Below are positions 33,778 to 37,782 of a stretch of DNA of 64,000 nucleotides, piece after piece. How positions within the stretch are numbered: position 1 is the first letter of the stretch; every line of letters starts with the position of its first letter. Under the pieces are notes generated by a model. The model was given only the letters and a program-made list of their open reading frames with translations. It was not told the origin of the DNA and ran no database searches. Both the position numbers and the translations under genes were made by a program. Source of the DNA: Allobosea sp. WAO (GTDB taxonomy: Bacteria > Pseudomonadota > Alphaproteobacteria > Rhizobiales > Beijerinckiaceae); contig NZ_JXTJ01000010.1 of the NCBI RefSeq assembly GCF_001509835.1, positions 62,001 to 126,000 of the forward strand, in the 5' to 3' direction.

Positions 33778-36700
33778 ATGGAGATGTCCGTAAGCGGCGA
33801 CCGTGCCGGTGTGCTGCATGGTGTCGTGGATCCCTCGCTGCTGCGGGACGAACTGCTCTCCGAGATCTTCGAGGCTTCGGCTGCGCGGACGCCGGACCGG
33901 ACGGCGATCGTCTTCGAGGACCGGCGCGTCAGCTATGCCGAGCTCAACGCGCTGGCCGACCGGGTCGCGCGGGCGCTGCGCAAGCAGGGCGTCAAGCCGG
34001 GCGAGTTCGTCGGCCTCTGGATGTCGCGTTCGCTCGACCTGCATGTCGGCCTGCTCGGCATCCTGAAGAGCGGCGCCGCCTACATTCCCTTCGACGTCGA
34101 CGCGCCGGCGGAGCGCATCGGCGAATGCCTGAGCGATTGCGCGGCCAAGGTCATCGTTATCGACGCCGTGACCGCCGCGAAGCTCGACCGCGAATTGCCG
34201 GCGACGGCGCGCGATTGCCTCGAACTCGTCGCCGAGGGCGGGGAGGGCTCGCCTCTCGACCTGCGCGCAGACGGCGTCACGCCCGAGACTCCGGCCTATG
34301 CGATCTACACCTCGGGCTCGACCGGCAAGCCCAAGGGCATCGTCATCGAGCACCGCAACATCTGCCATTACCTGCGCTCGTCCAACGCGATCTACGGGAT
34401 GACGCAGGACGACGTCTCCTTCCAGGGCGCCTCGGTCGCCTTCGACTTGTCGCTGGAGGAGATCTTCGTCCCTTACCTCGTCAGCGCGACGCTCTGGGTC
34501 GCCTCCCAGAAGGTGCTCGGCGAGGTCGAGCGCCTGCCGGAGCTGATGAACGCGGCCGGGATCAGCGTGCTCGACACCGTGCCGACCCTGCTCGCCATGC
34601 TGCCGCAGGACGTGCCGAGCCTGCGCATCATCATCCTCGGCGGCGAAGCCTGCCCGCCCTCGGTGAAGCAGCGCTGGTGCCGGCCGGGCCGGAAGATCTT
34701 CAATTCCTACGGCCCGACGGAGGCGACGGTCGTCGCGACGGTCGACGAGGTCACGCCCGAGGAGGTGGTGACCATCGGCGTGCCGATCCCGAACTACACC
34801 TGCTATGTCGTCGATGAGCAGATGCGGCTCGTCGGGGCCGGCGTCGAGGGCGAGCTGCTGATTGGCGGGCCGGGCGTAGCGCGCGGCTATCTCGGCCGTC
34901 CCGACCTGACCGCCGAGAAGTTCATCTCGAATCCCTTCCACCCGATGGCCGGCGACCCGGTGCTCTACCGTTCGGGCGATGCGGTCAGCGTCGCCGAGAA
35001 CGGCAAGATCCTGTTCCATGGCCGCATCGACGATCAGGTCAAGCTGCGCGGCTTCCGGCTCGAGCTCGGCGAAATCGAGGCGCGCCTGTCCGACCTGCCG
35101 GGGATCGCGCAGGCGACAGTGGTGCTGCGCCGCGATGACGGAATCGACCGGCTGGTCGCCTTCGTGGTTCCGACGGCCGGCGTCGAGCTCGATCGCGCAC
35201 AGATCCGCAGCGCGCTGAAGCAGACGCTGCCGCCCTATATGGTGCCCTCGCATTTCGAGGAGATGGCCGAGCTGCCGCGCCTGACCTCGGGCAAGGCCGA
35301 CCGCAAGGCGCTGAAGGCTGCCCAGCTCAGCACTCCGGCCGAGGCGGAGGAGCAGGAGGAGCCGCAGACGCCGACCGAGGCTGCGCTGCTGGCGGCGGCC
35401 AAGCCGCTCTTCCCCGGCCAGAACGTCGGCTTCGATGCCGATTTCTTCGCCGATCTCGGCGGTCATTCGCTGCTGGCTGCGACCTTCCTGGCGGCCGTGC
35501 GCGGCAATCCCGATCTGCCGGCCATCACGCTGGAAGACATCTACAGCCTGCGCAGCCTGCGGGCGATCGCCGCCCGGCTCGACGAGCGCGAGCAGGCCGC
35601 CGGCGGTCGCAAACAGCTCGACCTCAGCTTCACGGCGCCGCCGCTGATGCGTCGCGTGCTCTGCGGGCTGGCGCAACTCACCTGCATGCCCCTGCTGCTG
35701 CTGGCGCTGACGGGGCCCTGGCTCACCATCTTCGTGACCTATGAGCTGATCACGGTCGACGAGAAGGTCGAGTTCCGCGAAGTCCTGATGCTGATGGGCG
35801 TCTACATGCTGGTGACGCTCGCCATCCTGATCGCCGGCATCATCGGCAAAAGGCTGGTGTTGTGGCGGACGAAGCCGGGACGCTATCCGGTCTGGGGCGT
35901 CTATTTCTTCCGCTGGTGGCTTGCCCGGCAGCTCACCTCCTTCATTCATCTCAACCGGATGCAGGGTACGCCGCTCGGGCCGTTCGTGCTGCGCCTGCTC
36001 GGCGCCAAGGTCGGCAAGCGCGTCTTCTTCAGCGGCTTCGAGGCCGGCGCGGTCGACCTGATCGAGATCGGCGACGACGTCACGCTCGGCGGCAAGCTCA
36101 GCATCGCCAATGCCGAGGTGATCGGCAACGAGCTCGTCATCGGCAGGGTGACGATCGGGCGCGATGCCTATATCGGCACCTCCTGCGCGCTCGGCCACGA
36201 CACGGTCGTCGGCGATGGAGCGGAGCTTTCCGACCTGACAGCGCTGTCGCCGGGCATGCGCGTCGGCGCCTTCGAGCATTGGGACGGCTCGCCCGGTCAC
36301 AAGATCGGCACGGTCGACCCGGCGAACTGGCCGCAGCACGCGCCGGCGCCTTCCGCCCCGGTCCAGACCCTGCAGACGCTCTATTACGCGCTCCTGGTGC
36401 TGGCGATGCCGGCGCTCAGCCTCCTGCCGATCTTCCCGGCCTTCTACCTGTTCGACCGCTACGACACGGTTCTCCAGCAGATGGTCGGCGTCGATTATCA
36501 CTGGTTCCTGCCGGTGCTCACCTGGCCGACTGCGATGCTGATGATGCTCGGCACCGTGCTCCTGGTGACAGCGATTCGCTGGATCGTGCTGCCGAGCGCG
36601 CCGGCCGGCACGAAGTCGATCCATTCCGGCTTCGCGGTGCGCAAATGGACGGTCGGGCTCGCTTCGGACGTCATGCTCGACAGCCTGAGCTCGCTGTTCT

Positions 36701-37782
36701 CGACGATCTACATGCGGGTCTGGTACCGGCTGATGGGCGCCAAGATCGGCAAGGACACCGAGATCGCCACCAATTTCGCCGGGCGCTACGATACGATTTC
36801 GATCGGCGACCAGTGCTTCGTCGCCGACGAGGTGGTTCTCGGCGACGAGGATGTGCGCCGCGGCTGGATGACTTCCGGCCAGGTGAGCACCGGCTCGCGC
36901 GTCTTCATCGGCAATGATTCCGTGCTGCCGCCGGGAGCATCGATCCCCGATGGCGCCCTGATCGGCATCAAGTCGAAGCCGCCTGCCGACAAGCCGATGC
37001 AGCCCGGCGAGACGCGCTTCGGCAGCCCGCCGATCCTGCTGCCGGGTCGCCAGCGCTTCGACGATGCCGATGTCGCCAAGACCTTCCGCCCGCCGGTCTG
37101 GCGGCGCGTGCTGCGGGCGGTGTTCGAGCTGTTCAGCGTCTCGATGCCGACGATGATGTTCATCACGCTCGGCACCTTCGCCGCCGAATACGTGCTGTTC
37201 CCGGCGCTGGAGAAGTCGCAGAGCTGGGCCGAGTTCGCGCCGGTCTTCATCGCCACCGCCGTCGCCTGCTCGATCATCCTGGCGAGCGTGGTGCTGGCGG
37301 TGAAATGGCTGCTGATGGGGGTCTACCGGCCCGGCAATCACGGGCTCTGGTCGTGGTGGGCGCTGCGCACCGAGGCGATGACTACCTTCTACTGGGGAAC
37401 CGCCGGGGCGCTCTTGCTCAACGCGCTGCGCGGCACGCCGATGCTGCCTTGGGTGATGCGCCTCTTCGGTGCGAAGATCGGCAAGGGCGTTTTCCTCGAC
37501 AGCACCGACATCACCGAGTTCGACTGCGTTTCGATCGGCGACCATGCGGCGATCAACGCGACCTCCAATCTCCAGACCCATCTTTTCGAGGACCGGGTGA
37601 TGAAGATCGGGCAGATCGAGATCGGGCAGGGCGTTGCGATCTCGGCGCTGACGACGGTGCTCTACGACACCCGCATCGGCGACTACGCCAAGCTCGGCAA
37701 CCTCACGATCGTGATGAAGGGCGAGGCGATCCCGGCGCATACGCAATGGGCCGGTGCCCCGGCGCAGCCGGCGGCGGCGTAG
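33778..37782 (+). CDS. Pls/PosA-family single-module nonribosomal peptide synthetase (poly-amino-acid synthetase type)
   Basis: A 1334-aa membrane enzyme. Residues ~20-510 are an adenylation domain (YTSGSTGKPKG, FNSYGPTEATV, YRSGDAV, GRIDDQVKLRGFR, ELPRLTSGKADRK). A thiolation domain follows with DLGGHSLLA and phosphopantetheine Ser564. Next come several transmembrane segments (PLLLLALTGPWLTIFVTYEL, MLVTLAILIAGIIG and others) interleaved with three left-handed beta-helix-like blocks: AKVGKRVFFSG, AKIGKDTEIAT and AKIGKGVFLDS. There is no condensation or thioesterase domain. This architecture is that of Pls/PosA enzymes, which make and export homopolymers such as epsilon-poly-L-lysine. Aligned by eye, the specificity residues read D-L-E-D-I-L-S-V-V-K; the acidic residues at positions 3 and 4 suggest a cationic substrate (inference). 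It is monocistronic. Confidence 0.88.
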   Translation: MEMSVSGDRAGVLHGVVDPSLLRDELLSEIFEASAARTPDRTAIVFEDRRVSYAELNALADRVARALRKQGVKPGEFVGLWMSRSLDLHVGLLGILKSGAAYIPFDVDAPAERIGECLSDCAAKVIVIDAVTAAKLDRELPATARDCLELVAEGGEGSPLDLRADGVTPETPAYAIYTSGSTGKPKGIVIEHRNICHYLRSSNAIYGMTQDDVSFQGASVAFDLSLEEIFVPYLVSATLWVASQKVLGEVERLPELMNAAGISVLDTVPTLLAMLPQDVPSLRIIILGGEACPPSVKQRWCRPGRKIFNSYGPTEATVVATVDEVTPEEVVTIGVPIPNYTCYVVDEQMRLVGAGVEGELLIGGPGVARGYLGRPDLTAEKFISNPFHPMAGDPVLYRSGDAVSVAENGKILFHGRIDDQVKLRGFRLELGEIEARLSDLPGIAQATVVLRRDDGIDRLVAFVVPTAGVELDRAQIRSALKQTLPPYMVPSHFEEMAELPRLTSGKADRKALKAAQLSTPAEAEEQEEPQTPTEAALLAAAKPLFPGQNVGFDADFFADLGGHSLLAATFLAAVRGNPDLPAITLEDIYSLRSLRAIAARLDEREQAAGGRKQLDLSFTAPPLMRRVLCGLAQLTCMPLLLLALTGPWLTIFVTYELITVDEKVEFREVLMLMGVYMLVTLAILIAGIIGKRLVLWRTKPGRYPVWGVYFFRWWLARQLTSFIHLNRMQGTPLGPFVLRLLGAKVGKRVFFSGFEAGAVDLIEIGDDVTLGGKLSIANAEVIGNELVIGRVTIGRDAYIGTSCALGHDTVVGDGAELSDLTALSPGMRVGAFEHWDGSPGHKIGTVDPANWPQHAPAPSAPVQTLQTLYYALLVLAMPALSLLPIFPAFYLFDRYDTVLQQMVGVDYHWFLPVLTWPTAMLMMLGTVLLVTAIRWIVLPSAPAGTKSIHSGFAVRKWTVGLASDVMLDSLSSLFSTIYMRVWYRLMGAKIGKDTEIATNFAGRYDTISIGDQCFVADEVVLGDEDVRRGWMTSGQVSTGSRVFIGNDSVLPPGASIPDGALIGIKSKPPADKPMQPGETRFGSPPILLPGRQRFDDADVAKTFRPPVWRRVLRAVFELFSVSMPTMMFITLGTFAAEYVLFPALEKSQSWAEFAPVFIATAVACSIILASVVLAVKWLLMGVYRPGNHGLWSWWALRTEAMTTFYWGTAGALLLNALRGTPMLPWVMRLFGAKIGKGVFLDSTDITEFDCVSIGDHAAINATSNLQTHLFEDRVMKIGQIEIGQGVAISALTTVLYDTRIGDYAKLGNLTIVMKGEAIPAHTQWAGAPAQPAAA

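Follow-up and report, generated by a model that had tools for sequence, protein, structure and literature searches.

The window analysed here is a 64,000-nucleotide stretch of Allobosea sp. WAO (contig NZ_JXTJ01000010.1, positions 62,001 to 126,000), and it carries on its forward strand, at 33778–37782, a gene for a protein of 1334 amino acids. Profile searches and structural models identify the product, with high confidence, as a synthetase of the Pls/PosA type, the family that contains the ε-poly-L-lysine synthetase Pls and the δ-poly-L-ornithine synthetase PosA. We consider that it probably acts as a single-module, self-contained homopolymer synthetase, and that its substrate is very likely a basic amino acid. 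Both the family and the pocket subgroup to which the protein belongs, described below as DLED, are already known in print, and the novelty is therefore modest; the polymer product is predicted.

Domain architecture of the synthetase

The NCBIfam profile TIGR02353, which represents the terminal domain of Pls/PosA proteins, covers residues 637–1329 with a score of 557.8 bits (cut-off 423.1), and the profile AA-adenyl-dom scores 409.6 bits (cut-off 317.4). The six Pfam matches obtained at E ≤ 0.01 define AMP-binding at residues 31–372, AMP-binding_C at 432–506, PP-binding at 546–601 and Hexapep as a single stretch at 791–816; there is no condensation or thioesterase family among them, as had been stated in a preliminary description of this DNA. 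A single chain thus holds an adenylation domain (residues 31–506; 33868–35295; PF00501/PF13193), a carrier or thiolation domain (residues 546–601; 35413–35580; PF00550, 26.2 bits, cut-off 20.8) with its phosphopantetheine serine at S564, and a terminal polymerisation domain (residues 637–1329; 35686–37764), all on the forward strand. Together with a six-helix pattern, three left-handed β-helices and the Asp and Glu of the pocket, this is the arrangement expected of the family. Besides a shorter AcpS-like frame, the genome also encodes a protein with a phosphopantetheinyl-transferase domain, which is a candidate for activating the carrier.

Conservation was counted over 80 distinct family members, comprising a first set of 51, which leaves out truncated copies at loci L038–L067 and exact duplicates, and a second set of 29. 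The second set used 30 of 80 loci (the other 50 were not used) and required an open reading frame of at least 1150 amino acids with a terminal-domain match above 80 bits; L111, which duplicates the contig of L080, is not counted. S564 is present in 80/80 of these members.

The adenylation domain is closest to that of PosA. By sequence, the PosA structures score 382.7 bits, whereas each domain of linear gramicidin synthase scores about 213. The AlphaFold2 model of the adenylation and carrier domains (predicted local distance difference test score, pLDDT, 87.7; predicted template modelling score, pTM, 0.75) was compared using Foldseek with the PosA structures 8g95–8g98, giving a template modelling (TM) score of 0.91–0.93 of the target, a root-mean-square deviation of 1.6–2.1 and 46–47% identity, which is the highest identity among the 50 best rows.

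The terminal domain (residues 616–1334) was modelled using AlphaFold2 from a 27-sequence alignment, with a mean pLDDT of 90.9 and a pTM of 0.91. In the model, long helices alternate with three blocks of short regular strands, which are left-handed β-helices at approximately residues 754–845 (36037–36312, containing the Hexapep stretch), 988–1081 (36739–37020) and 1233–1332 (37474–37773), the strands having been read from the model. Hydropathy analysis gave 12 overlapping hydrophobic windows, which merge on reading into six stretches in three pairs; the model has seven long helices, the middle pair being drawn as three. This fold agrees with the terminal domain of PosA as modelled in the relevant passages of PMC10522769. 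Foldseek searches against the PDB returned galactoside and maltose acetyltransferases, serine acetyltransferase, GlmU and LpxD, with 112 matches at E ≤ 0.001 and identities of 10–21% in the best 50 rows. Profiles, model and structural matches are all in agreement with the layout of adenylation, thiolation, membrane segments and three β-helix blocks originally proposed.

The terminal domain contains one histidine, H1268 (codon 37579–37581), that is invariant in 80/80 aligned members, and no other histidine there is kept in more than 43/80. It is also invariant across the 27 more evenly sampled rows of the model alignment, where it is numbered H653. When the three blocks are aligned with each other, this position is His only in block 3, and Ala and Glu in blocks 1 and 2. 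A histidine acts as the base in hexapeptide acyltransferases, and a carrier protein supplies LpxD with its acyl group. Because H1268 is invariant, occurs only in block 3 and has this precedent, we suggest that it is a candidate catalytic base, and that there may be a single active site per chain. Passages on histidine and catalysis in PMC10522769 contain no such proposal.

The reading frame is genuine, as first described: it starts with ATG, follows a purine-rich stretch, has a third-position GC of 0.91, exceeds the TIGR02353 cut-off, and has full-length counterparts elsewhere in the genus. An antisense open reading frame of 1351 residues (33691–37746, reverse strand) was rejected as a gene. 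It has no Pfam match at E ≤ 0.01 and its frame contains stops in 9/9 relatives tested, and it is therefore regarded as a GC-rich shadow.

The adenylation pocket and its amino acid

The pocket residues, read from a column alignment, are D223, L224, E227, D266, I286, G288, S310, V318, V319 and K506 (within 33868–35295), giving the code DLEDIGSVVK. The code had previously been read by eye as DLEDILSVVK; nine of these residues hold, and position 6 is G288 rather than Leu. The column map is sound, because the same columns return the codes printed in pocket passages of PMC10522769 for PosA (DMEHNGTVSK, in five rows) and for a Bdellovibrionales protein (DSECYGGVTK, in two rows). D223 and E227 are kept in 80/80 members and are equivalent to D217 and E221 of PosA, the Asp and Glu described there as essential, which supports the original view that the acidic pocket residues suit a basic side chain.

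The pattern DLED[I/L]G[S/T]VVK occurs in 42/80 distinct members (39/51 in the first set and 3/29 in the second). It is already in the literature: section 10 of PMC10522769 lists unassigned homologues with ‘D L E D I G T V T/V/I K’ from Archaea, Rhizobia, Methylobacterium and others. That paper was the only one found to treat this pocket type, and no test of its substrate was found, in a search that covered few subscription papers and no supplements.

A tree was calculated by a quick method from 68/81 rows, leaving out 12 genus-wide copies (see below) and L111, and was rooted at the midpoint. Types in the tree, which was made without characterised full-length Pls or PosA, were assigned from code and origin. 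The 30 DLED rows form one clade (Shimodaira–Hasegawa-like approximate likelihood ratio test, SH-aLRT, 100), which is joined to five PosA-type rows (100), so that with this rooting the DLED clade would be sister to the ornithine type. In the rows next outside these two clades, position 2 is mostly Met and once Val. Records of Methylocella tundrae, ‘Beijerinckiaceae bacterium’ and Methylorubrum fall among the tree rows of the host family, which suggests a family of the Beijerinckiaceae type; a bin assigned to a different family of the class supplied one DLED row (L080/L111). We note separately that L120, a record titled as a metagenome-assembled genome of Klebsiella pneumoniae, groups with a Holophagaceae row and is possibly a mislabelled bin.

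The choice among basic amino acids was approached by searching for enzymes that would supply the less common ones. Diaminobutyrate, diaminopropionate and β-lysine were each considered as substrates and rejected, since no supply enzyme scored over its cut-off (weaker relatives are present). Specifically, no diaminobutyrate transaminase over the cut-off was found in the host genome or in any of the 61 genus genomes (0/61), while the positive control, Haloferax volcanii, was found; SbnA-type and AblA families likewise gave no match over the cut-off in the host genome. There are 13 transaminase matches in the host genome, of which the best four were scanned and proved to be two γ-aminobutyrate (GABA) transaminases and two members of other class III families. 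These results leave the amino acids of primary metabolism. Our best guess, which is tentative and read from sequence, is L-ornithine, and after it L-lysine; of the three candidates originally named, ornithine and lysine are thus retained and diaminobutyrate is disfavoured.

An enzyme of the same kind that uses L-lysine and makes ε-poly-lysine is a less likely possibility. Pocket positions 5–10 match the code DAESIGTVVK apart from Ser/Thr, and lysine is a primary metabolite. The DAESIGTVVK rows are mainly actinobacterial, with one from Hymenobacter and one from Chlamydiae, and are assigned to the Pls type by their Ala at position 2 and mostly actinobacterial origin, the alignment containing no characterised Pls. 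Position 2, however, is Leu here and Ala in lysine synthetases, and replacing the equivalent residue of PosA (M218A) raised its use of lysine nearly 10-fold, according to passages of PMC10522769; nor does the DLED clade lie beside the actinobacterial rows in the tree.

Arginine, or some other basic amino acid that is new to the characterised polymers of the family, is a rather unlikely substrate; D266 would then pair with a head group that is larger or carries two charges. The DLED pocket is unlike every code printed for a characterised member in the code passages of PMC10522769, which also describe a Bdellovibrionales homologue with an odd pocket as modestly active with arginine. However, rows with that homologue's code are far from the DLED clade in the tree, and nothing positive was obtained for any such substrate.

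Codes beginning DLE are common in the diaminobutyrate adenylation domains of Pseudomonas, and Leu at position 2 is bulkier than Ala. All the same, 2,4-diaminobutyrate, polymerised to γ-poly-diaminobutyrate, is an improbable substrate, because the transaminase is over its cut-off in none of the genus genomes, and position 2 is Phe in the diaminopropionate and diaminobutyrate synthetases considered in passages of PMC10522769.

Two synthetase copies and their loci

The host genome (G000) contains a second full-length synthetase (G000:C2:201823-205761; L002, L092), which is 56% identical to the window copy. Copies of this second type, 55–57% identical to the window protein, are present in 25/25 genus genomes (the host and 24 others), and we refer to them as the genus-wide copy. 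The window-type copy occurs in only 5/25: the host, G017 (97% identical), and G003, G014 and G005 (79%, full-length). A single one of 16 further genomes of the order has a match at E ≤ 1e-100. Across the host family, TIGR02353 matches at E ≤ 1e-30 in 211/298 sampled genomes and 34/43 genera, with 205 over the cut-off; these counts include all copies, whatever their pocket. L115, a metagenome bin titled Methylorubrum populi, has a copy that is 71% identical in the terminal domain and 76% in the adenylation domain. In another genome of the family, a frame at G440:C3:83970-86039 gives a TIGR02353 score of 814.5 bits, the next score being 641.6, and is probably another subtype.

The two genomes whose window-type copies are nearest, G000 and G017, have Ile and Ser at pocket positions 5 and 7 of the genus-wide copy; the remaining genus rows that were read have Leu and Thr. 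These shared states suggested gene conversion between the copies, which was rejected, as a sliding comparison judged by eye gave no clear tract.

The surroundings of the window copy were searched across 60 loci that carry a synthetase (tblastn, E ≤ 1e-10, half length). Of its 16 tested neighbour genes, 11 are closely matched in L088 (G017), whose fragment misses some of the others; elsewhere there are only paralogues of low identity, a TetR protein (28%) in L128 and enoyl-CoA hydratases (28–36%) in L128, L074 and L090. A conserved biosynthetic neighbourhood was therefore rejected. The gene upstream of the synthetase (33133–33606, forward strand) encodes a MarR/TrmB-like protein according to Pfam, a possible local regulator, and is found only in L088 among the 60 loci. 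It belongs to a DctP-RidA-MarR segment (31584–33606) that has a near full-length match, at 94% DNA identity, only in G017 among the 60 other genomes searched, and that possibly arrived together with the synthetase. The carboxyltransferase gene downstream has a match of at least 79% DNA identity in 39/61 genus genomes, the host included. The 79% window-type copies sit at other sites, one shared by G014 and G005 and another in G003. The window copy is a patchy accessory copy beside the genus-wide one, whether by gain or by repeated loss, because its neighbours and upstream segment are shared with G017 only while the downstream carboxyltransferase is widespread. The preliminary description stated that there is no dedicated polymer hydrolase gene nearby, and indeed there is no peptidase among the 10 neighbouring proteins that were scanned, a scan that did not extend to the other neighbours.

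The locus of the genus-wide copy is partly conserved across the family. In its vicinity are genes for an enoyl-ACP reductase, a histidine phosphatase, chorismate synthase and ribBA, a set that does not accompany the window copy. All four are present in each of the other genus loci in the comparison (7/7), and their order is unchanged in six; in L093 the synthetase segment is inverted. Among nine loci from other genera or records of the family, whose flanks are limited, the reductase is found in six, the histidine phosphatase in seven, chorismate synthase in five and ribBA in four. The histidine-phosphatase gene (L092:8452-9486 and equivalents) lies just upstream of the synthetase in 7/9 of these family loci and in 6/7 of the other genus loci, and a functional link between the two is possible.

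Proposed mechanism and relation to known systems

We propose that the adenylation domain would activate one basic amino acid, most likely L-ornithine and next L-lysine, as its AMP ester, and that this would be loaded onto S564 in the carrier domain. The terminal domain, embedded in the membrane, is predicted to be a pseudo-trimer of left-handed β-helix acyltransferase units in one chain. Here H1268, as the candidate base, would activate the side-chain amine of one residue for attack on the thioester of another residue, and repeated attack could produce a short isopeptide polycation. The original suggestion of a candidate cationic-polymer producer holds with regard to family and architecture, on which profiles and model agree; polymer making itself comes only from what is known of the family. 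The antimicrobial or surface function suggested for the polymer in that description would be a possible role.

Several observations weigh against this proposal. By E-value, Foldseek places longer fragments of non-ribosomal peptide synthetases ahead of PosA, the first PosA structure being at rank 26. For the terminal domain the best E-value is only 6.6e-06, and the query TM score is no higher than 0.16 in the best 50 rows, which is low because about one block is matched. The pocket differs from that of PosA at 5/10 positions, including Val in place of Ser313, whose change to Ala costs PosA 183-fold according to passages of PMC10522769; positions 5–9 resemble the lysine type apart from Ser/Thr, and an acid at the position of D266 occurs in 0/38 members outside the DLED group. 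The tree was produced with long-branch warnings, and its placement of the DLED and PosA-type rows as sisters depends on the midpoint root. The conservation count is weighted towards one clade, from which more than half of its 80 members come. The cut-offs of the hidden Markov models leave room for another route to diaminobutyrate, as relatives exist below them (diaminobutyrate transaminase 280.7 bits, SbnA-type 218.8, AblA 284.3). Finally, the Sfp-like phosphopantetheinyl-transferase frame is below the TIGR00556 cut-off (28.7 against 45.35) and over no NCBIfam cut-off.

A different outcome of the same chemistry would be envelope modification, in which a membrane acceptor that carries a hydroxyl group receives aminoacyl groups or a short isopeptide and no free polymer is released. 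The hydrophobic helices and acyltransferase-like fold of the terminal domain are in keeping with this, as is the fact that the genus-wide copy lies in a housekeeping locus with partial conservation across the family, and recombinant Pls has been described in passages of PMC9606270 as esterifying its polymer to glycerol and polyethylene glycol (PEG). We nevertheless regard it as doubtful: the polymer that PosA made in vitro was purified in free form, as described in part of PMC10522769, and outside its nearest relative the window copy is not accompanied by any conserved acceptor or partner gene. A broader speculation, which we also think doubtful, is that the DLED clade makes an undescribed polymer and that this polymer is a permanent component of the envelope in bacteria of the Beijerinckiaceae type. 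On this view the genus-wide copy would be a conserved envelope gene that perhaps links the polycation to a lipid or sugar of the membrane, with the window copy as its mobile version.

The homopolymer synthetase proposed here may be informative about function. The biological significance of bacterial polycations was called unclear in passages of PMC9606270 (2022); with the family-wide spread described above and a copy in every genus genome, the role of a polycation becomes open to a deletion test. The DLED pocket forms a defined substrate class, and the invariant H1268 provides a single-residue handle on how the polymerising domain works. The present analysis adds the finding that the window copy is accessory and coexists with a genus-wide copy, the partial conservation of the locus in which the genus-wide copy lies, the evidence that disfavours diaminobutyrate, and the one histidine that is invariant in the terminal domain.

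Among known systems, the protein resembles PosA of Acinetobacter baumannii (PMC10522769) in its domain order, its pairs of hydrophobic helices, its three β-helices and its equivalents of D217 and E221, and its clade lies next to that of the PosA-code rows; it differs from PosA in its pocket code, in being only 42–43% identical to the PosA-code rows, and in its separate clade. It is like the Pls of Streptomyces and Corynebacterium (adenylation domain 7wew) in domain order and in pocket positions 5–10, which are nearly identical, and unlike it at position 2, where Leu replaces Ala, and at position 4, where Asp replaces Ser. The Pls operon described in part of PMC8117764 has a PldII-type peptidase, whereas none is among the 10 scanned neighbours here. 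Unlike the poly-diaminobutyrate subgroup, it is accompanied by no diaminobutyrate transaminase over the cut-off, in its own genome or across the genus genomes. LpxD and other hexapeptide acyltransferases share the fold of the terminal blocks and, for LpxD, a carrier-protein acyl donor; here, in contrast, three units are fused with hydrophobic helices and a carrier domain, and identity is low, as given above. The closest likeness is to the unassigned DLED homologues of PMC10522769: the pocket is essentially the same, differing by Ser for Thr at position 7, and the gene belongs to that set.

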